Shown here piece after piece: positions 7,555 to 29,520 of a stretch of 33,332 bases of DNA (the first letter of the stretch is position 1; each line of letters begins with the position of its first letter). The DNA comes from Acidobacteriaceae bacterium (GTDB lineage Bacteria; Acidobacteriota; Terriglobia; Terriglobales; Acidobacteriaceae). Where the stretch lies: NCBI GenBank assembly GCA_003165005.1, contig PLSB01000052.1, positions 1-33,332 on the forward strand, in the 5' to 3' direction. Under the pieces are notes generated by a model that saw nothing but the letters and a program-made list of their open reading frames with translations, had not been told where the DNA came from and searched no databases. Both the position numbers and the translations under genes were made by a program.

Positions 7555-8332
7555 ACTTGGATTCTAATGCGACGCGAGCCGAACCGGGGACGAGATTGTA
7601 GCTGGCGCTCCGCTGCCGGCGCCGAAAACGCAACGGGATCAGTCAAGCCCGGCTCCGGGTTCGACAAATGCGAGCGCTCACGCCCCTTCCAGCTCGTTGC
7701 ATGGGTCCGGGATGAGCCCTTAAGGCCCGCACCCGGAAGGCGCGGTTCCATTTCGGGAATCGGCGGGATATCGAAGCCCTCTGGGAGCCCTCGGCCGACC
7801 CCCGTCCAGCGGCTTCAACGCTGTCGTCCGTCTGCCCAAGTAATCAATTGCGCAATGTTTTTTCTAAGAGATACATTACGATTGCGGCCCAGGTTCTGCA
7901 CCCGGCCCTGCGGCAGAGATCCTGCCGGTGTGCTCCGAAGAGGCCCGGGCAGGTCATGCGGCGCCCCTGCTTGTGGGATGCGGAGGTTCCCAATTTGGGG
8001 TATCCAAGCCGGTTCCCTGCCATAGGGAGGGCTCAGAAGCCGCTCTATCGACCCATTCGGGTCATAACTTCAATGCCATTCTCCACAAAAGTACTACTTC
8101 CGTCGTCATTCTGTGTCATTTCGGTAAATTTCCCCGAAGGGTAGAATCGTCTCCAGTTGAGACACAGATCCACGACCGGCGAGTTGCGCCCAAGTAAGGA
8201 CCTCAACTGAGGAAAAGCCAAAGCCAAGGGATGGAAGACCGATTCCGAACGCCAGACCATTATGGCGATCCAATGGAAAAACGGCCCGAACCCTTGAACT
8301 TGCAAATCCGTATTCCCAGAACGGAGAAGGAT
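7555..8332 (+). other. Long intergenic region between divergent glmS and the cpaE-MBG gene
   Basis: I see no credible gene in these roughly 780 bases; short open frames here lack family features and ribosome sites. It contains the glmS promoter side (TAGAAT on the minus strand at 7561-7566) and a palindrome ATTGCGCAAT at 7847-7856 next to an A/T-rich stretch. There is also a small hairpin GACCC-ATTC-GGGTC at 8050-8063 and a TAGAAT box at 8142-8147 that could be a -10 element for the downstream gene. No good -35 box accompanies it. The long leader leaves room for an unrecognised small RNA or regulatory element. Confidence 0.4.
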
Positions 8333-11300
8333 ATGGCGACAACACCCGGCGAGTATGACGTCGCGTCGCAACACCGCAACGACGAGTTGAACAACCCTGT
8401 CGGCGCATTCGGGCTGAAGATTGTTCTGATCTGCCCCAATGATCACTATTGCACCGAAATGGCGAATTGCCTGTATGACGCGCAATGCGGCGAGGTGCGA
8501 TCCCAGACTTATTATCCATCGCTTCCGGTCGGTCACGACGACGTGCTTGGCGGCGAGTGCGACGTAGCGATTGTCGAGCTGGACAGCGATCCGGATCAAG
8601 CCTTGGGCCTGGTGAAGCGGATTGGCAACGCCTCCACGGCCAGGGTCATGGTCTGCTCCGCCAATCCGGCGCCGGATCTGTTGATGCGCTGCATGCGTGC
8701 GGGCGCCCGCGAGTTTCTCAATCTGCCCGTCGACCGGGAACAGATTGTGGCCGCGATGGTCCGCGCTGCGGCCAAGCGGCAGCCCTTGCAGCCGGAGAAG
8801 CGCGCTATGGGCAAGCTGATGGCGTTCATGGGCACCAAAGGCGGCGCCGGCGTTACCACGGTTGCAACCAACTTCGCAATCGCGCTGGCTGAGCACACCG
8901 GCGCCAAGACCCTGTTCATGGACCTGGACCTGCCGCTGGGCGATGCCGCGCTGAACCTCGGCATGACCACGGAGTTCTCCACCGTTGACGCGCTGGAGCG
9001 GATCGATCGCCTCGACGCCAATATGCTTTCGCGATTGACGGTCAGGGATCGCAGCGGCTTGCAGGTGCTTGCGGCTCCGGGCCATTACGTTTCATTGCAA
9101 CCCTCCGACAGCGACATCAAGACCCTTCTGGAGCTGGTGACGCGCAGCTACGACTACGTGGTCGTCGACCTGGGTTCGCGCCTCGATCTGCGCGGCACTG
9201 GGGTGTTTCAGATTGCCAACCCGGTTTTTCTGGTCACAAGGGTCGACGTGGCCGATCTGCGCAACTGCAGCCGGCTCATCTCTCAGTATTTCGGCAGCGA
9301 CTTCCACAACATCGAAGTGGTTCTGAGCCGCTATAAGCGCAGTATGCTGGCCATCGACGACAAGGAAATTGCCCGGATGCTTTCCGTGCCCGTGCGCTGG
9401 AAGATCCCTGCCGACGACGACGCAGTCAGTTCGATGCACTCCCAGGGCGTGCCTCTGATCCGCAGCAACAACCCCATCTCCAAGGCCATCCGCAAGATGG
9501 CCGAAGAGCTGGTCCCGCGAGCGGAGAAGGCCGCGGCGCCAGCCGCTGCTGCCGAGGAGGAGCCGGCCAGCCGCAAGGCAAAGTCCGGATCGAAGGGCAA
9601 AGTGAAGGGCGAGTCTGGCGGGCTGCTGAGCATCTTCTCGAATCGTGATGAAGAGGCAGAAGAGGCGGAGACGCCATCCGAATCCACTCCCGCGCCCGAG
9701 ACCCGCGTGTACCGCGGGGTGGTTTATGTCAAGGGCGAGGACGGCAAATGGCACGCGCAGGATACAGGCAAGCGCGAGACGGCTCCAGCCGAGCCCGTGG
9801 TCGAAGCGCAAATTGCGTGGTCGGCGCCCCGGCCTGTCGATTATGGATCCGCTCTGGACGAGGGTCAGCTCAACGCCACGGCCAACGTCGAGGGTACGTT
9901 TGAGTACCGGCCCGCGGCGGGCGAGATTCTCTCCGCCGGCAAGCATACGCTGACCGTGCTCTTTACGCCCCAGCACGACCCCGACAATCCGATCGAGGCC
10001 GAAGTTCAGTTCACCGTCAATAAGCTGTCGCCCGTGGTCGAGTGGCAGCAACTGGAACCGATTTCCTATGGCACAGCGCTCGGCGAAGAACAACTGAACG
10101 CCCAGGCCAATATCGAAGGCAGGCTAGTTTACAACCCGCCGGCAGGGACCATCCTGCCCGAGGGCGTACACGCCCTCTCGGTGATCTTCATCCCCAACGA
10201 TCCGGTGAACTACAACACTGCCGTCAACGTTGCCTCCCTCACGGTTTCGCGGATGATTCCGCGCATCGAGTGGCCGGATCCCGCGCCGATTTTCTACGGC
10301 GCGCGCCTGAGTGGAACGGAGTTGAACGCCAGGGCGCCGATTCCCGGTTCGTTCGTTTATGCCCCGAAGGAGGGAACGCTGCTCCCGGCTGGTGTGCACA
10401 AGGTGACCGCGACCTTCCTGCCCGAGCAGAGCGAATACTACAGCGAAACCAAAGCCACGGTGACACTCATTGTGGCCAGGGCCACGCCGGAGGCCCGTTG
10501 GCAGCAGCCTCCGGATATCGTCTACGGCACGCCGCTGGGCACCGAGCACTTCGCCGTCGAAGCGAGAGTTCCGGGCAGCATCGAGTTCAGCGCTGATGTC
10601 GGCGAAGTGCTTTGCGCCGGCCGGCACACGCTGATCGCTTACTTCACCCCGGAAGACGCGGTCAACTACTCGGAGACCGAGTTCGAGGCCACGCTCAACA
10701 TCGCCAAGAACACACCCACCCTGACCTGGGATAAGGCCGCACAAATCGTTTACGGCACGCCGCTCGACAACAGTCAGCTCAATGCCGAGGCTTCGATTCC
10801 GGGTGCGATTGAGTACATGCCCGGGCCTGGCAAAGTGCTGCCCGCAGGCAGGCATACGATTGCAGCCCGCTTCACGCCGGCCGACGCGAAAAACTTCGAG
10901 ATTGTCGAAGCCCGCCTGCCCCTTGCCGTGGAGAAAGCCACGCCGGCGGTCGAGTGGCCGGCGCAGATTTCGATGGTTTACGGCACGCCGCTCGGCGACC
11001 GCGTATTCCGCATCTCCACTACCGTCGAAGGCAGCCTTGCGCTGACGCCGGCCAAGGGCGAACTCCTTCCCGCTGGCTCGCATGTCGTGCATGCGGTCTT
11101 TGTGCCGGCGGACTCGGCCAACTATCTGTCGGCCGAAGCCGACGTGCGGGTTCAGGTTGCCAAGGCCTATCCCATCGTTACCTGGGAGCCGCCCAAGGCG
11201 ATTCTCTATGGCGCGGAGCTGACAGCCGAGCAGTTGAACGCTCAAGCGAGCGTTGGTGGGCACTTTACCTACACGCCGGCGTTGGGCAAGAAGCTCGGAG

Positions 11301-12967
11301 CGGGCCAGCATGCCATCAGCGCCACCTTTGTTCCCGACGACGGGGCCAACTATCAAAGTGTTCAGGCCAACGTGCAGCTGACCGTGGAGAAAGCGGTACC
11401 TACCATCGAGTGGCCGGAACCCGAAGCCGTCACCTACGGCGAAGAGCTTGGCGAAAGGCAGTTACAGGCCCGAGCTTCTGTGCCCGGCTCGTTCGCCTTC
11501 ACTCCGCCCGCCGGAGGGGTTCTGGAAGCTGGAATCAACCGGCTGACCGCGGTCTTTATCCCGCTCGATACGGCCAACTACGTCTCCACGCAGGCGGCGG
11601 TGAAACTCACGGTCAACAAGGCCATTCCCACGCTGGCCTGGTCCGATCCGGCGCCCATCGAATGGGGCACGCCGCTCAGTCCCGCCCAGTTGAATGCGAA
11701 GGCCAGCGTACCCGGCAGCTTCGTCTACACGCCGGCCGAAGACGAGCGGCTCAGAGCCGGCAACCACACCCTGTCGGTCACCTTCCTGCCCGAAGACTCC
11801 CGCAACTACGCGGCGGTGGAGACATCGACCTCGATTACCGTCCACCGCGCAACGCCCTCGATTACCTGGGATCCGGTTTCGCCGATCGTCTACGGAACCA
11901 CGCTGGGGCCCGATCAACTGAACGCCGAAACCGACATTCCCGGCGTGTTCGTCTATCGTCCGGCAGTCGGCGCCGTGCTACCCGCCGGCACAACCCAACT
12001 CACCGCGACCTTCCTCCCCGAGGACGACGCCAACTACGCGGAAGCAGATGCCTCGGCGTCGCTGGTGGTGGAGAAGGCCATTCCCGCAATCGAGTGGCGT
12101 ACGCCCCAGCCGATCGAGTATGGAGCGGCTATCGGTGTACAACAACTGAACGCTCGCGCATCCGTTCCGGGCTCGTTCACCTACATGCCGTCTTCCGGTT
12201 CCATGCTCTCGGCCGGAACCCACACGTCCACGGTCGTGTTTGCTCCGGAAGACACTGCAAATTATCTCTCGGCTGAGGCCGCGGTTACGCTGGTAGTCAA
12301 GAAGGCCACGCCCAAGATCGCCTGGCAGACCCCGGAACCGATCATCTCGGGCAATCCGTTGAGCGTTGCTCAGCTGAACGCCAAGGCGTCGGTACCGGGC
12401 AAGTTTGCCTACATCCCGCGGGTTGGCTCGGTTCTGCCCGCCGGCACGCACACCGTTGAGGCCACCTTCGTGCCGGCAGATTCCACCAACTACACGCCGG
12501 TGCAGATCTCCGTCGAGTTGGCTATCGTCGAAGTGAGAGAAGTGTCGATCGACTGGAAGACGCCGGCGCCGATCTACTACGGTACGCCGCTCGGAGCGAG
12601 TCAGTTGAACGCGCAGACCAGCGTTCCCGGAACCTTTGTCTACTCGCCTCCGGAGGGCACGCTGATTGCCGCCGGAACGCAAGCTCTGATGGTCACGTTC
12701 ATTCCGGACGACGACGTGAAATACGCCGCCGCCCAGGCCTCGGTCACGCTGGTGGTTAAAGCCGGCGAGCAAGCCAGCAGCGCAAACCTTGCAAACAAAT
12801 CTGTCGCCGCGCCCACCGGCGCATCCGGGAGTTTGACCGATCGCGATCCCGGCAAGCGGAAACCGGCACCCGCCAGCGAGCCGCAAGGCGCGAAACGGGA
12901 AACGCGTGTTTACAAAGGGGCAACCTACGTAAAGGAGGTTGATGGAAAATGGCACCTGGAGAAGTAA
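8333..12967 (+). CDS. CpaE/TadZ-like ATPase fused to 13 MBG-like Ig-type repeats
   Basis: From ATG 8333 this is about 1,544 residues. A receiver-like domain (about 27-150) is followed by a ParA/MinD-type ATPase with deviant Walker A KGGAGVTT (about 169-176), FMDLDLPLGD and YDYVVVDLGS. CpaE/TadZ proteins of this kind place Tad pilus machinery at the cell pole. After an acidic/basic linker come 13 tandem repeats of about 76 residues (coding bases 9809-12762) with the pattern W-x-P-x-PI-x-YGTPL, QLNA, VPG-x-F-x-Y-x-P, LPAG-x-H, F-x-P-x-D-x-x-NY. These match MBG-type bacterial Ig-like repeats. A TRVY-G-x-x-YVK-DGKWH motif occurs just before and just after the array. No signal peptide or membrane segment is visible. 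The start is chosen for GGAG 6 bases upstream; ATG 8231 would add 34 residues of atypical codon use. No other tad genes are in the window. Domain calls are firm; the function of the fusion is unknown. Confidence 0.9.
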   Translation: MATTPGEYDVASQHRNDELNNPVGAFGLKIVLICPNDHYCTEMANCLYDAQCGEVRSQTYYPSLPVGHDDVLGGECDVAIVELDSDPDQALGLVKRIGNASTARVMVCSANPAPDLLMRCMRAGAREFLNLPVDREQIVAAMVRAAAKRQPLQPEKRAMGKLMAFMGTKGGAGVTTVATNFAIALAEHTGAKTLFMDLDLPLGDAALNLGMTTEFSTVDALERIDRLDANMLSRLTVRDRSGLQVLAAPGHYVSLQPSDSDIKTLLELVTRSYDYVVVDLGSRLDLRGTGVFQIANPVFLVTRVDVADLRNCSRLISQYFGSDFHNIEVVLSRYKRSMLAIDDKEIARMLSVPVRWKIPADDDAVSSMHSQGVPLIRSNNPISKAIRKMAEELVPRAEKAAAPAAAAEEEPASRKAKSGSKGKVKGESGGLLSIFSNRDEEAEEAETPSESTPAPETRVYRGVVYVKGEDGKWHAQDTGKRETAPAEPVVEAQIAWSAPRPVDYGSALDEGQLNATANVEGTFEYRPAAGEILSAGKHTLTVLFTPQHDPDNPIEAEVQFTVNKLSPVVEWQQLEPISYGTALGEEQLNAQANIEGRLVYNPPAGTILPEGVHALSVIFIPNDPVNYNTAVNVASLTVSRMIPRIEWPDPAPIFYGARLSGTELNARAPIPGSFVYAPKEGTLLPAGVHKVTATFLPEQSEYYSETKATVTLIVARATPEARWQQPPDIVYGTPLGTEHFAVEARVPGSIEFSADVGEVLCAGRHTLIAYFTPEDAVNYSETEFEATLNIAKNTPTLTWDKAAQIVYGTPLDNSQLNAEASIPGAIEYMPGPGKVLPAGRHTIAARFTPADAKNFEIVEARLPLAVEKATPAVEWPAQISMVYGTPLGDRVFRISTTVEGSLALTPAKGELLPAGSHVVHAVFVPADSANYLSAEADVRVQVAKAYPIVTWEPPKAILYGAELTAEQLNAQASVGGHFTYTPALGKKLGAGQHAISATFVPDDGANYQSVQANVQLTVEKAVPTIEWPEPEAVTYGEELGERQLQARASVPGSFAFTPPAGGVLEAGINRLTAVFIPLDTANYVSTQAAVKLTVNKAIPTLAWSDPAPIEWGTPLSPAQLNAKASVPGSFVYTPAEDERLRAGNHTLSVTFLPEDSRNYAAVETSTSITVHRATPSITWDPVSPIVYGTTLGPDQLNAETDIPGVFVYRPAVGAVLPAGTTQLTATFLPEDDANYAEADASASLVVEKAIPAIEWRTPQPIEYGAAIGVQQLNARASVPGSFTYMPSSGSMLSAGTHTSTVVFAPEDTANYLSAEAAVTLVVKKATPKIAWQTPEPIISGNPLSVAQLNAKASVPGKFAYIPRVGSVLPAGTHTVEATFVPADSTNYTPVQISVELAIVEVREVSIDWKTPAPIYYGTPLGASQLNAQTSVPGTFVYSPPEGTLIAAGTQALMVTFIPDDDVKYAAAQASVTLVVKAGEQASSANLANKSVAAPTGASGSLTDRDPGKRKPAPASEPQGAKRETRVYKGATYVKEVDGKWHLEK
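9809..12762 (+). repeat. 13 tandem MBG-like protein repeats (about 228 bp each)
   Basis: Thirteen units follow one another without gaps, each starting at a Trp and about 76 codons long. The shared pattern is YGTPL, QLNA-x-A, VPGSF-x-Y-x-P, LPAG-x-H and F-x-P-x-D-x-x-NY. Units 4 to 6 are the most diverged; 4 and 6 lack QLNA. Units 7 to 13 are closer to consensus. Unit 12 has ISGNPL where others have YGTPL. The DNA copies are well diverged at synonymous sites, so the array is old rather than freshly amplified. Confidence 0.9.
12931..12951 (+). promoter_or_regulatory. Strong Shine-Dalgarno for the TonB-like gene inside the upstream coding region
   Basis: AAAGGAGGT at 12931-12939 lies 9 bases before ATG 12949 and is a near-perfect match to the anti-Shine-Dalgarno. 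It is also read as codons of the C-terminal YVKEVDGKWH motif of the upstream protein. It fixes the TonB-like start and implies translational coupling across the 19-base overlap. Confidence 0.85.
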
Positions 12968-15532: not shown

Positions 15533-15643
15533 TGCGCTGAATCTTTACCAACTCCGCGCCCTACCCTTTCGCCTTCTTTCTGGCGAAAGGGTGGGAAACC
15601 GCGTAAGCCAAAGGAACGAATTCATGCGGTCAGAGACTTGGCA
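15533..15643. mobile_element. MITE-like palindromic element, copy 1 (cysO 3' end)
   Basis: Aligned with 27368-27479, about 100 bp match with few differences. The match includes a central hairpin CCCTTTCGCC-8 nt-GGCGAAAGGG (about 15564-15591) and the end sequence GAATTCATGCGGTCAGAGAC (right end). The left end is more decayed than in copy 2. The element lies across the 3' end of cysO, whose frame runs into it and stops inside it at 15545. It carries no gene of its own, so any movement would need a transposase from elsewhere. Confidence 0.75.
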
Positions 15644-15913
15644 TCCCCCGGCGATCGAGGGCACAATCGAAAGCGTGTCGCCAGCCGAAACCGCCGTGGC
15701 ATCTTTCTCCGGCAGGTAGCGAATATCCTCGTCGTTCAGATACACGTTCACAAACGCCCGCAGCTTGCCCTCCGCGGTGAACAGGTGCTTGCGCAGATCG
15801 GGAAACGTTTGGGTCAGTTCGTCAAGCGCGCCGCTCACGGTTCCAGCGTTCACATCCACCGCATCCTTGCCCGCGGCATAGGGCCGCAACGGCGTTGGGA
15901 TATAAATCGTCAT
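15545..15913 (-). CDS. cysO: CysO-like MoaD/ThiS sulfur carrier with a C-terminal extension
   Basis: Residues 1-90 form a ubiquitin-like MoaD/ThiS carrier: IPTPLRPYAAGKD, VNVYLNDEDIRYL and the terminal SIVPSIAGG. In M. tuberculosis, CysO carries sulfur as a C-terminal Gly-Gly thiocarboxylate that CysM uses to make CysO-cysteine. Here Gly89-Gly90 is followed by 32 more residues, starting CQVSDRMNSF and ending in a basic stretch. Nearly all of these are encoded by a MITE-like repeat (15533-15643). The extension would block thiocarboxylate formation unless it is removed, possibly by the JAMM protease encoded just upstream. The ATG has GAGAGGAA about 8 bases upstream and lies 15 bases after the mec stop. 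The core is intact and not frameshifted, so I treat it as a working gene with an altered tail. Confidence 0.88.
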   Translation of the reverse strand: MTIYIPTPLRPYAAGKDAVDVNAGTVSGALDELTQTFPDLRKHLFTAEGKLRAFVNVYLNDEDIRYLPEKDATAVSAGDTLSIVPSIAGGCQVSDRMNSFLWLTRFPTLSPERRRKGRARSW

Positions 15914-17631: not shown

Positions 17632-17798
17632 TGCGGCGATGCGAAGGATAGCGTCCCGATTTGCCTTGTTTTGAAAGGGCACGGCTTCAGCCGTGCCGAA
17701 AGATCGGCTGGGCTTCAGCCTCTGAGGGAACGCTCTTATCGAAATTGGGATACTACTAGCCGAAGAGAGCGCCTATCTGGCCGAGCTGGTGCGAATCG
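17632..17798 (+). repeat. TTYA-loop hairpin repeat downstream of the decarboxylase gene
   Basis: GGCACGGC-TTCA-GCCGTGCC at 17678-17697 is preceded by TTGAAAG, like the copy at 2443-2462. A shorter GGC-TTCA-GCC hairpin follows at 17711-17720. The stretch between the cysM promoter and the decarboxylase stop holds no recognisable gene. Confidence 0.7.
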
Positions 17799-20577: not shown

Positions 20578-20690
20578 AATTACAGTCGCAGATAGGTTTT
20601 TGCGGAGGGAGCAGGGGCCTTCAGGCCCCTGAAAAGCCGCAAAAACAGGAAGGCCTTTAGGCCCGGCCCCTTGTCCTTTTGCGGAATCCA
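20578..20690 (+). repeat. Paired-hairpin intergenic repeat, copy 1
   Basis: The element begins right after the beta-barrel stop. It contains CAGGGGCC-TTCA-GGCCCCTG (20612-20631) and GGCC-TTTA-GGCC (20652-20663). Over about 99 bases it aligns with 25941-26039, with the same order of hairpins and the shared stretch GGAGGGAGCAGGGG. It may act as a terminator or processing site for the gene before it. Confidence 0.78.
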
Positions 20691-25936: not shown

Positions 25937-26040
25937 CGCCACAGTTGTAGATCGAGGCTTTTGGAGGGAGCAGGGGGCTTCAGCCCCCTGAAACAGGGCC
26001 AATTTGCGGGGCCTTCAGGCCCGGGCCTTTGTCGCCTTTC
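25937..26040 (+). repeat. Paired-hairpin intergenic repeat, copy 2
   Basis: This is the second copy of the element at 20578-20690, starting directly after the VKOR stop. Its hairpins are CAGGGGGC-TTCA-GCCCCCTG (25971-25990) and GGGCC-TTCA-GGCCC (26009-26022). The first stem differs from copy 1 at one base pair, changed on both sides. Confidence 0.78.
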
Positions 26041-26083: not shown

Positions 26084-27367
26084 ATGTTCACAGACTGGTA
26101 CGCGCGTTGGATGTACGAGTGGGAAACGCGGCTGACGACGCGCGACGAAAATCGCGTGGTGCGGCCGCTGGAGTGGGGCTTCGAGTGGATCGTGCCCTTC
26201 CTCGAGGCGCATGGTTTTGGTTCCGTTGTGCCCGGCCCCGAAGTCGAGGGCGATCCTGCCGCCGCCGAGGCCGCGATGACGCGCATCAACCAGCTCCTCA
26301 TCCGCCACAGCCAGTCTTTTTTTGGCTATGAGCGGCCTACGGATTTTCGGCTTGAGGAGCGCCATCCGCGGCTCTTCCCCACCAACGTTCGCCCGGAAAC
26401 CCTCGCCCAGGATGCCGCGCTGAAGCGTCAGGCCGCCGAAGGCAAGCTCGCGCCCGCGCAGTATCTCCGCTTTACCTCGCCGGAGCGCACGCCGCATCCG
26501 GAAAACGACGTGGCCAACGCGCGCTGGTATCCCGCTCCCGTCCACAAGGATCCCACGCGGCCCAAACAGGCCATCGTGGTGCTGCCGCAATGGAACGCCG
26601 ACGGCTTCAGCCACAACTCGCTGTGCACGATCTTCAATCGCATGGGGGTCTCGGCGCTGCGTCTTTCCATGCCCTATCACGACATTCGCCGGCCTCAAGA
26701 ACTGGAGCGCTCGGACTACGCCGTCAGCGCCAACGTCGGCCGCAACATCTCCGCCTGCCGCCAGGCCGTGGTCGATATCCGCTGCTGCCTCGATTGGCTC
26801 GAAGAGCAGGGTTACGAGCACTTCGGCGTGCTGGGCACCAGTCTCGGCTCCTGCTATGCCTATCTGGCCAGCGCGCACGACGCACGGCTCAGGGTGAACG
26901 CCTTCAACCATGCGTCGACAGCTTTTGGGGATGTAGTTTGGACCGGGCAATCGACGCGCCACATCCGCCAGGCTGTGCAGGAGGCAGGTCTCACGCAGGA
27001 GCGCGTGCGCGCCCTATGGGCCGCCGTAAGCCCCGTGAGCTATTACGAGCAGTTCCGCGGACCCGAGGCCAACGGCGCCGGCAAAAACGTTCTCGTGGTC
27101 TACGCTAACTACGATCTGACATTCCCGCGCGAGTACTCGCTCAAGGTGGCCGACGCCTTCCGCCGCTCCGGCGTGCGCCACGAGATCCGCGTGCTGCCCT
27201 GCGGCCACTACACCACCGGCGAAAGCCCCTACAAATTCATCGACGGCTGGTACATGGGCTGGTTCGTCTATCGCGCCTTCAAGGCGCTGCGGGAAGAGAA
27301 AGCGTCGCGCGCCAGCTCGGAGGCGACGCATTCAAGCGGCGTCGAGGAAGAGGCGCTTTCGCGCTAG
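26084..27367 (+). CDS. ABHD18-like alpha/beta hydrolase
   Basis: This is a 427-residue alpha/beta hydrolase with no signal peptide. The nucleophile elbow is GTSLGS in FGVLGTSLGSCYAYLAS. The likely acid is the Asp in YANYDLTFPREY, and the catalytic His is in LPCGHYTTGESPYKF. The N-terminal region, with WYARWMYEWETRL and PLEWGFEWI, resembles the ABHD18/DUF2048 family, which is present in animals and many bacteria and poorly characterised. The substrate is unknown; an ester or lipid is most likely. The C-terminal 30 residues are polar and probably disordered. The TAG stop directly abuts a MITE-like repeat. It may share regulation with the VKOR-like gene upstream, but a repeat and a separate promoter-like box lie between them. 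Confidence 0.85.
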   Translation: MFTDWYARWMYEWETRLTTRDENRVVRPLEWGFEWIVPFLEAHGFGSVVPGPEVEGDPAAAEAAMTRINQLLIRHSQSFFGYERPTDFRLEERHPRLFPTNVRPETLAQDAALKRQAAEGKLAPAQYLRFTSPERTPHPENDVANARWYPAPVHKDPTRPKQAIVVLPQWNADGFSHNSLCTIFNRMGVSALRLSMPYHDIRRPQELERSDYAVSANVGRNISACRQAVVDIRCCLDWLEEQGYEHFGVLGTSLGSCYAYLASAHDARLRVNAFNHASTAFGDVVWTGQSTRHIRQAVQEAGLTQERVRALWAAVSPVSYYEQFRGPEANGAGKNVLVVYANYDLTFPREYSLKVADAFRRSGVRHEIRVLPCGHYTTGESPYKFIDGWYMGWFVYRAFKALREEKASRASSEATHSSGVEEEALSR

Positions 27368-27479
27368 GTCTCCGACCGCTTAATTCTGTACGAATTCCGT
27401 GCCCCATCCTTTCGCCTCTTTCCTGGCGAAAGGGTGGGATACCGCGAAAGCCAGGGGACGAATTCATGCGGTCAGAAAC
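27368..27479. mobile_element. MITE-like palindromic element, copy 2, filling a convergent gene gap
   Basis: This 112-bp element begins right after the TAG of the hydrolase gene and ends right before the TAG (minus strand) of the M23 peptidase gene. Its ends are inverted repeats: GTCTCCGACCGCTTAATTC at the left and the complement of GTTTCTGACCGCATGAATTC at the right, with 16 of 20 positions matching. A central hairpin, CCTTTCGCC-8 nt-GGCGAAAGG, could end transcription in both directions. It aligns over about 100 bp with 15533-15643. Confidence 0.8.
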
Positions 27480-28394
27480 CTAGCGCACGGCGCTCAAATC
27501 CATCTGCAACAGTTTCGCAGGATCGAGATACGCATTCTGCCAGCGCACGGCCCAGTGCAGGTGCGGCCCGGTCACGCGTCCCGTAGCGCCGCTCAACCCA
27601 ATGGGCTCGCCCACGTCCACATGCTGCCCCTCGCGCACGTCGATGCGGCTCAGGTGCATGGAGATCGTGTAGAGACCCAGGCCGTGGTCGATGACCACGC
27701 AGTTGCCCTCGTAGTAGAGCGGCCGGGCCAGCACCACCACGCCGCTGTTTCCCGCGCGCACCACCGTCCCCGTCGCCGCGCGAAAATCCATCCCCTTGTG
27801 CACGCTCGCGAGCTGGCCGTTGAAGACGCGCCGCGTGCCGAAACTATCGGTCGGTGGCGCATCGACCGGCGCGCGAAAATCGCCCGACCACAGCGGCTGC
27901 GGGGCGCTCTCCGCAAAGACCCGTTTCTTGAGCTCGATCTCGGCTTCGATCCTCTTCAGTGCTTCCGGTCCCGGCGCTACGAACTTGGGCGCCACGGTGA
28001 GCGTGCCGGTGCGGTAGTGCGCCTCGTGAATTTCAATGCTGCGGCTCAGGTCAATTGGTTTCGGCGTGGCCGTGCCGCCGCCATCTTCCGGCACAACTCT
28101 AATCCGAAGGATAGAAGGGCCCACGGCCCCTTCCACATCCACGCCCGTCAGCGCATACCGCGCCTGTCCGTCGCGCCCGCGAAAAAACGCGAGCTTCTCT
28201 CCCAGCCACTCGCCCTCAAGCGTTGCGCCGGCCGGTGCGGCCACGCGAATCAGCTCCGGCGAACCCGCCTCCACCTCGGCCGGAGCGAGCGTCACGGCGG
28301 GCGTCTGCGCGCGCGCCGGAATCGCCGCCGCCACGCTTGCCCAAAGCACCAGAACGGAAGATCGAAGCCATAAGCCCGGCCAGTAAACTTGCAT
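27480..28394 (-). CDS. M23 (LytM-type) peptidase, exported
   Basis: This is a 304-residue zinc peptidase. The N-terminal signal peptide (1-30) ends near PARAQT. A strand-rich domain (about 31-120) looks Ig-like and is followed by a short helical link. The LytM domain (about 175-290) has HKGMD with the first His and Asp ligands, and the H-x-H ligand pair HLHW in TGPHLHWAVRW. YTISMHLSRIDVREGQHVDVG is the expected core spacing. With all ligands present it is predicted to be active, cutting peptide cross-links in peptidoglycan. LytM proteins lacking them act instead as amidase activators. The gene ends against the MITE-like element. Confidence 0.92.
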   Translation of the reverse strand: MQVYWPGLWLRSSVLVLWASVAAAIPARAQTPAVTLAPAEVEAGSPELIRVAAPAGATLEGEWLGEKLAFFRGRDGQARYALTGVDVEGAVGPSILRIRVVPEDGGGTATPKPIDLSRSIEIHEAHYRTGTLTVAPKFVAPGPEALKRIEAEIELKKRVFAESAPQPLWSGDFRAPVDAPPTDSFGTRRVFNGQLASVHKGMDFRAATGTVVRAGNSGVVVLARPLYYEGNCVVIDHGLGLYTISMHLSRIDVREGQHVDVGEPIGLSGATGRVTGPHLHWAVRWQNAYLDPAKLLQMDLSAVR

Positions 28395-28426
28395 GGACCT
28401 CAGGATAGCGGAGATTTCCGGTCTCC

Positions 28427-29048
28427 ACAGGCTGCGGAAAAACTCTTGCTGAGCGGCGAAACGCGAGGGGGCACGACTTCAGAGCTTGCTAAAAAAACCT
28501 GCAAGCGAGACAAAACGCGAAAAGGCACGAGTTTACTCGTGCCGTAACCGATTCAAAACCGGTGCCGGGCTTTACAGGCTGCGGAAAAACTCTGCAAGTT
28601 GGACGAAACGTGAAAGGGCACGACTTCAGTCGTGCCGTAACCGCAGCAAAATGAGTGAGGGGCTTTACAGGCTGCGGAAAAACTCGTTCAGCAAGAAGCT
28701 TTGTAACAGGGCACGAGTTTACTCGTGCCGCAAACGCCGCAAAATGAAGGACGGGCTTTAGCCCCTGCGGGTGCCCCGCTCAAGAATTCGCTTGCTGTTC
28801 TCCGTTTTTCCGCAGCCTGTTTAGCCCCTGCGAGAGCTCCCCTCAGGAATTCGTTCGCTGTTCGCCGTTTTTCCGCAGCCTATTTAGCCCCCGCAGGAGT
28901 TTCGCGCGACGAATCGCGACTTGGTCCCCCCTTTTTCAGCAAGCTGTTCAGTCGTGCCGCAAGTGCCGCAGAATGTGCGTGGGTTTTAGCCCCTGCGGGT
29001 GCTTTCCTCAAGAATTCGTCCGCTGTTCGCCGTTTTTCCGCAGCCTGT
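28427..29048. repeat. Mosaic cluster of palindromic repeats
   Basis: Three direct copies of ACAGGCTGCGGAAAAACTC (28427, 28574 and 28667) are followed by three inverted copies (28804-28820, 28866-28882 and 29031-29048). TTYA-loop hairpins sit between the direct copies: GGCACGAG-TTTA-CTCGTGCC at 28524-28543, GGCACGAC-TTCA-GTCGTGCC at 28617-28636, and a second GAG/CTC form at 28710-28729. The inverted half is made of units of about 62-66 bp starting TTTAGCCCCTGCG and containing AGAATTCG or GGAATTCG (28755-28820, 28820-28882 and 28984-29048). Half hairpins at 28470 and 28949 mark broken copies. Open frames across this block are products of the repeats. Confidence 0.85.
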
Positions 29049-29520
29049 GTACCCATCGCGCGCTCGGGGACCTGTTAGGCCATCCTCCTCGAGCCGGCCA
29101 GGACCGCCGGCTTGTGCCTTCGGGACAAGGACATTTCCAGCCGCAAACGCCCTCCAGGAAGTTGCCCCAAAGTGGAAATAAAGGGGAATTTCCCTTGCAA
29201 ATGATTGCGCAATCGTTTGTGGACGTTTTTGTAACTTATTGATTTAACACGTAATCGTTTTGGCACGCAAAGTGCTTATGTCAAGGGTGCCTGAAGTTTT
29301 AGAAGGCGGGGCGAGTTGTCTGCGCCCCATGTGGAACTTGCGCCGTTGCCGTTCTGCCTAAGTCCCTTTTCTCCGGATTGGTTGATCGCTCGTTGGGAAT
29401 ATCCGCGGTTTTGGCTCTTCGGTTCGAATCAAGTGCGCAAGTAAACGATAGGAACGGCCCCTTGGGCCAAAGCTAGAGCGCTCCGCCCGCGAGGGTGAGC
29501 CTCGGAGGTTAAGGAAAATC
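29049..29520 (+). promoter_or_regulatory. Long leader and control region of the PEP-CTERM gene
   Basis: No gene is visible here. After the repeat cluster the DNA becomes A/T-richer near 29175-29260. It includes a 12-bp palindrome GATTGCGCAATC (29203-29214), placed about 48 bases before the sigma-54 promoter, where an activator site would be expected. From the predicted transcript start near 29287 the leader is about 234 bases. It can form hairpins GGGGCG-9 nt-CGCCCC (about 29309-29329), GGCCC-CTT-GGGCC (about 29457-29469) and CGAGG-GTGAG-CCTCG (about 29490-29504). The last one reaches the ribosome site. Confidence 0.5.
29260..29277 (+). promoter_or_regulatory. Sigma-54 (-24/-12) promoter
   Basis: TTGGCACGCAAAGTGCTT contains TGGCAC with GG at 29262-29263 and GC at 29274-29275, exactly 10 bases apart as sigma-54 RNA polymerase requires. 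It faces the PEP-CTERM gene. PEP-CTERM genes in other bacteria are known to depend on RpoN with the PrsK/PrsR pair, so the match fits its context. Confidence 0.75.

Follow-up and report, generated by a model that had tools for sequence, protein, structure and literature searches.

A MITE between two convergent genes

The window, by which we mean the whole 33,332-nt stretch of Acidobacteriaceae DNA that was analysed, contains a short repeat element between two convergent genes (these and all other genes were called with our own codon-usage caller). The element at 27368-27479 fills the intergenic gap exactly, from TAG to TAG, because both gene stops immediately border it: the plus-strand gene ends on TAG at 27365-27367 and the minus-strand M23 peptidase gene on CTA at 27480-27482. 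The tetranucleotide CTAG is found at 27364-27367 and again at 27480-27483, and both neighbouring TAGs are part of this doubled target rather than lying outside the element by luck. The features of the locus, together with those of a second copy in the window (copy 1), are:

26111-27367, plus strand: neighbour gene A, with a weak alpha/beta-hydrolase match (ABHD18), stopping at the left TAG
27364-27367: left copy of the target, CTAG; its TAG at 27365-27367 is the stop of the plus-strand gene
27367-27480 (114 bp, if the duplication is TA) or 27368-27479 (112 bp, if it is CTAG): MITE proper
27367-27396, plus strand: left end, at best 20/30 identical to an IS630-family IS end
27398-27446, plus strand: central REP-like hairpin, of the type flanking Y1 transposase genes
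27399-27439, plus strand: hairpin core GTGCCCCATCC...GGGTGGGA, within the central REP-like hairpin
27451-27480, minus strand: right end, 23/30 identical to the right ends of loci L414 and L421
27480-27483: right copy of the target, CTAG; its minus-strand TAG is the stop of the M23 peptidase gene
27480-28334, minus strand: neighbour gene B, Peptidase_M23, stopping at the right TAG
15545-15913, minus strand: cysO (ThiS family), with 32 residues beyond Ala-Gly-Gly
about 15535-15640: copy 1, with a decayed left end; its right end lies at the cysO stop, where the place of TAG is now CAA

The first-pass annotation of this DNA had described a MITE-like element with imperfect terminal inverted repeats and a central hairpin, placed exactly between two convergent stop codons, and this description holds throughout. 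The inverted ends are identical at 12/15 of the first positions and at 17/30 overall, and the stem in the centre comprises 14 pairs. At 112-114 bp the element is short and has no called gene inside, in line with a MITE, which lacks a transposase gene. Its fold reaches -69.9 kcal/mol, compared with -38.7 ± 3.6 in 200 shuffles (z = -8.7), and an Rfam scan of the window returned no family reaching its gathering score.

Copy 1, matched at 15535-15637, is 82% identical to the element across 74 nt. The tail of CysO reads into this copy because CAA now stands where TAG was: the first residue after Ala-Gly-Gly precedes the element, and the other 31 of the 32 are encoded by reading into it. In all 23 CysO rows from relatives (at least 63% identity), 1 to about 31 residues follow Gly-Gly, and a JAB-domain protease gene adjoins cysO in the window. 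Based on these two observations, C-terminal processing of CysO may be general in these organisms.

Copies and their flanks

A genome-wide search for copies with their distances to stop codons, and a search for empty sites in relatives, had been proposed as checks together with the initial description, and both kinds of evidence were obtained. BLAST yielded 44 matches to the element in the genome to which the window belongs (own genome; E ≤ 0.001, fragments and lone hairpins counted), confirming a multi-copy element. A loose scan gave 117 candidates, many of them due to chance; fixed cut-offs kept 34 composite copies and 15 lone cores, with copy 1 of the window and L008 falling out. The best genome copies span 118-121 bp from CTAG to CTAG. 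The right-arm pattern gave 0 matches in genome contigs, a collection that may lack records close to the window's genome. The core pattern was found in contigs at no fewer than 94 loci, with 93 acidobacterial titles and one Actinacidiphila among the matches listed.

Copies were further compared as frames, defined by the presence of both ends. The resulting set of 47 (19 from the own genome and 28 from relatives' loci) counts one left end twice (L340) and includes one doubtful frame (L412). A 2-kb pair of ends in genome G030 (L368) was considered as one element and rejected in favour of two separate elements, as the enclosed called genes are, by eye, not transposases.

CTAG stands on both sides in 19/47 frames. 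In 7/47, only the outermost base of one flank deviates, and the opposite flank never has the same variant, a pattern leaning towards TA as the duplicated sequence; the base next to the element deviates in 4/47.

IS630-family insertion sequences with matching ends

We examined 30 PF13358 (DDE_3) loci from a search across 16 genomes. One of these is a degenerate IS with MITE-type ends (L413), whose broken transposase, used as query, found matches in 15/80 genomes, itself included. Two further ISs combine GGTCT-type ends with flanking CTA/TAG: L414, 1203 bp long, and L424/L429, which are a single place, 1199 bp long. The HTH and DDE_3 domains of L414 are encoded in two frames. The MITE consensus ends, in which we filled in four undecided letters, are identical to those of L414 at 22/30 (left) and 25/30 (right) positions. 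Across nine IS ends tested, the consensus agreed at 17-25 of 30 positions; for 2000 random 30-mers used as control, the best agreement averaged 9.5 and never exceeded 17. The MITE therefore shares its ends with IS630-family ISs of same-genus genomes (L414, L424/L429 and the degenerate L413).

The transposase gene itself stops in the flanking CTAG at 5/10 loci inspected (L414, L415, L416, L417 and L428), and the stop of the L418 transposase gene lies 6 bp before the flanking CTAG. We found no intact IS bearing such ends in the own genome, the assembly of which is 75% complete; its nearest IS630 transposase (C308) is bounded by different ends, GTACCGTG. A MITE copy (L017) is located at the stop of this C308 transposase gene (L416 near 1468, G000:C308), with one CTAG common to both.

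Empty sites and native gene ends in relatives

When the window flanks were joined with a single CTAG, a one-piece alignment over the junction was obtained in 20/39 relatives searched. In 12 of those 20, the stops of both genes overlap by exactly 4 bp within one NTAN, in the forms CTAG/CTAG, TTAG/CTAA, CTAA/TTAG or TTAA/TTAA (the L196 row, spoilt by a phase slip, was left out of the 12), and in 7 of the 20 the genes are 7-130 bp apart. From these 4-bp overlaps at the empty site we infer that the insertion struck a stop common to both genes and left one to each. A duplication is evident at the window locus, but the empty site fits a duplicated TA and a duplicated CTAG equally. An intergenic terminator as the target is ruled out in the 12 relatives, since their genes overlap, and the 7 others leave a gap.

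Native stops beyond the window pair were checked at two gene-end sites, carB and cysO. For carB, 17/29 relatives' rows are equal in length to the copy-bearing gene here (lengths counted by eye), 10/29 are longer and 2 are out of frame. The native carB stops are CTAG in L225 and L226, CTAA in L215 and ATAG in L218 and L227, with others elsewhere; carB of L225 ends with the same NGR-CTAG as here. The cysO gene of relative G060 terminates with AGGC-TAG at the corresponding place.

The central hairpin as a separate layer

The hairpin core is also present alone, outside frames, and a Y1 gene of the own genome (C234) is bordered by inverted copies of the hairpin. The association was followed at 30 loci from a protein search with C234, of which 28 contained the motif. 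A GTGCCCCA..TGGG hairpin lies within 700 bp of the Y1 gene in 23/28 loci, with none in 5/28; 14 loci have it on both sides, in opposite orientation in 13/14, and elsewhere 9 such hairpins were counted in 285 kb. Inverted copies flanking a cognate Y1 gene are the arrangement of RAYT/TIRYT-associated repeats. The base of the hairpin is GTGC instead of the GTAG of GTAG-class REPs, for which reason we use the label REP-like.

The central hairpin is a layer separate from the frame, and other frames carry other hairpins. A GTGCCCCA hairpin, with differing stems, is present in 33/47 frames and a double GCCGG hairpin in 3, while 11 fall into neither class. The double GCCGG hairpin resembles hairpins beside two other Y1 genes of the own genome. 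For the 22 frames found by their ends alone, the corresponding numbers are 10, 3 and 9; the element served as query for finding most of the other 25 frames, so that the presence of GTGCCCCA in 23 of these 25 is expected. Across genomes the hairpin sequence is widely divergent and the pairing is kept. A set of 24 copies shows paired changes in 4/18 stem pairs, and the inner stem comprises 8 pairs or more in 44/47 frames. Frame ends were absent at 38 Y1 loci (30 + 8 examined); in G030 (L380), a frame end stands beside a Y1 gene with hairpins, with a run of N between.

The window contains further repeats. Hairpins of type GGGCACGGCTTTAGCCGTGCC were located at 2431-2463, 17666-17698, 28605-28637 and 28698-28730, and the region 28418-29060 is a dense cluster of this type with repeat spacings of 93 and 63 nt. 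Three other Y1 transposase genes of the own genome (L148, L149 and L153) are flanked by inverted GGGCACGGCTTTAGCCGTGCC-type hairpins. Another repeated hairpin occurs at 20582-20634 and 25941-25993, in two copies that are 79% alike. At 8273-12967 (plus strand) lies a gene some 1,560 codons long, the start of which we take by eye to be CpaE-like; its repeats recur at multiples of roughly 228 nt, or 76 codons.

The first-pass annotation had offered two explanations for the position of the element: targeting to terminators, or use of the element as a two-way terminator. Retention as a two-way terminator or insulator between the convergent genes is improbable, even though the high stability of the hairpin, the paired changes in its stem and the persistence of the inner stem agree with it. 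No intrinsic terminator, searched for as a G+C-rich stem followed by a T run, was found on either strand of 27200-27650. Convergent genes surround 9/34 copies, tandem genes 19 and divergent genes 4, and for 2 the arrangement is unknown (background gene pairs in own-genome loci and the window: 26 convergent, 77 tandem, 19 divergent). Moreover, 12/20 relatives do with overlapping genes and nothing between them, and the hairpin is otherwise explained by its association with Y1 genes. Two-way terminator use is thus not supported. Of the idea of targeting to terminators, the non-random placement at gene 3' ends is supported (13/38 and 21/57, see below); the target is CTAG.

Slightly less probable still is a reading of the entire composite as a REPIN-like unit that a Y1 (RAYT/TIRYT) transposase moves, with CTAG as the tetranucleotide of the cleavage site and not a duplicated target. 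A Y1 element inserting beside CTAG and ending in CTAG would leave an identical footprint, the central hairpin is of the type beside Y1 genes, and the frame end in G030 lies near a Y1 gene and hairpins, across a run of N. However, both ends of the element match IS630-family ISs, one kind of frame holds different hairpins, and the 38 other Y1 loci are without a frame end.

Placement at stop codons

In the own genome, 38 gene 3' ends adjoin the 34 copies, and 13 of these, in 12 copies, stop exactly at the terminal TAG. Three further stops fall at positions 10, 12 and 20 of the element; in this looser set, TAG is used by 13/16. In the pooled frames, the stop falls exactly at the terminal TAG in 21/57 stop flanks and 20/47 frames (7/19 in the own genome and 13/28 in relatives' loci). 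The doubled CTAG forms host stops, as known for TnRErm46, at both window neighbours; the count of 21/57 gives the extent of this over the frames.

The consensus ends contain inward stops in all three frames (TAG at 4, TGA at 12 and TGA at 20), and these, along with the longer carB rows in 10/29 relatives, are what speaks for the least probable reading, in which the insertion site may be anywhere in the 3' region of a gene and the gene is cut short at the element's border; we reject it for the tested sites (carB, cysO and the window pair), because 21/22 stops inside frames fall on the TAG of CTAG at position 4, against the equal use expected from truncation (p = 1e-9), and because the same end exists without the element in 17/29 rows for carB, in one relative for cysO and in 12 for the window pair.

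In relatives' loci, CTAG occurs at 98 sites in 303 kb of coding and at 97 sites in 75 kb of intergenic DNA, with 33 at 320 stops; the own loci contain 34 coding and 41 intergenic sites and 11 at stops. Owing to this scarcity within genes, a quarter of the CTAG sites outside coding interiors are stops (33/130, 25%, in relatives' loci), which accounts for most of the stop-codon pattern. The pooled stop matches (20/47) exceed the 25% predicted from CTAG targeting and coding avoidance (p = 0.008), and in the own genome alone (12/34 at stops) the excess is not significant (p = 0.13). The pooled excess may be real, or stop-sited copies may keep their ends better; something may be missing from the model.

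Origin of the exact fit

Taken together, we consider it highly probable (about 0.92) that a non-autonomous IS630-family MITE with a REP-like hairpin landed in a CTAG common to two convergent genes, and that CTAG specificity, not a terminator role, explains the exact fit. The ancestor would have had the two convergent genes with overlapping TAG stops in one CTAG. An IS630-type (Tc1/mariner-like DDE) transposase, presumably acting in trans on the MITE, would have moved it into the TA of this CTAG and duplicated the target. The insertion would thereby have separated the genes and left a complete TAG to each; both retain a stop because the element leaves CTAG at each end. Placement at gene ends would result from CTAG specificity, visible in the flanks, and the observed scarcity of CTAG within genes, and probably also from the loss of gene-breaking insertions. 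A host function is probably lacking.

More tentatively, and at somewhat less than even odds, the family may be a two-layer mobile element, in which a DDE-moved IS630-type frame repeatedly acquires hairpins of different Y1 (RAYT/TIRYT) families as cargo, so that the genomes of the genus carry different combinations, harmlessly parked on stop codons.

Relation to known systems

IS870 is said (Fournier, 1993) to require a CTAG target to create the stop codon of its ORF1. This resembles the transposase genes here that end in the flanking CTAG at 5/10 loci; IS870 differs in being an autonomous IS from another bacterium. IS630 itself reportedly (Tenzen, 1991) prefers TA within CTAG.

IS630 and ISY100 duplicate TA (PMC2170065) and, unlike the element here, are autonomous and not MITEs. 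RUP of Streptococcus pneumoniae is a 107-bp non-coding MITE with IS630-Spn1-like ends, TA insertion and stops in all frames (PMC2229807). The element described here shares with it the IS630-family ends, the non-coding MITE structure, a probable TA insertion and the all-frame stops; it is unlike RUP in its CTAG flanks, which are host stops, and in its REP-like hairpin cargo. TnRErm46/ISRe46 of Rhodococcus equi targets CTAG, the TAG of which ends its transposase and some target genes (PMC6794481). The CTAG target supplying TAG stops is the same as here, but TnRErm46 is a resistance transposon with unrelated ends and not a MITE, and the accessible text does not describe a stop common to two convergent genes. 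MITEPsy1 of Pseudomonas syringae, a 100-nt MITE, duplicates CTAG or YTAA and was tied by its authors to ISPsy2 (IS5 family, with a question mark; PMC3189936). Duplication of CTAG is likewise a candidate here; MITEPsy1 differs by its IS5-family link, and a link to stop codons is not described in the portion available. Finally, TIRtrons/TIRYT, some of them in Acidobacteria, comprise Y1 genes with inverted repeats on either side, and some of these repeats make up families (PMC3733652). They combine Y1 genes and inverted repeats as here, whereas the accessible sections do not describe a cargo role inside an IS630-type MITE.

The principle that insertion into CTAG supplies TAG stops to the transposase and a host gene is already in print for TnRErm46/ISRe46, so that novelty is limited to this family, the shared-stop insertion and the hairpin cargo. 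In a literature search with most subscription papers outside its scope, we found no report that a MITE restores stops at many loci, that an insertion struck the common stop of two convergent genes, or that an IS630-type frame carries REP-like hairpins as its cargo.

For annotation, these results serve as a warning that a gene is not necessarily truncated when its end coincides with a repeat, and that a strong hairpin at a gene end is not necessarily a terminator. For the family itself, a puzzling exact fit becomes a testable rule: a transposon that requires CTAG is steered to stop codons, which stay intact, and such stop-sparing insertion is a possible route to harmless spread at high copy number.
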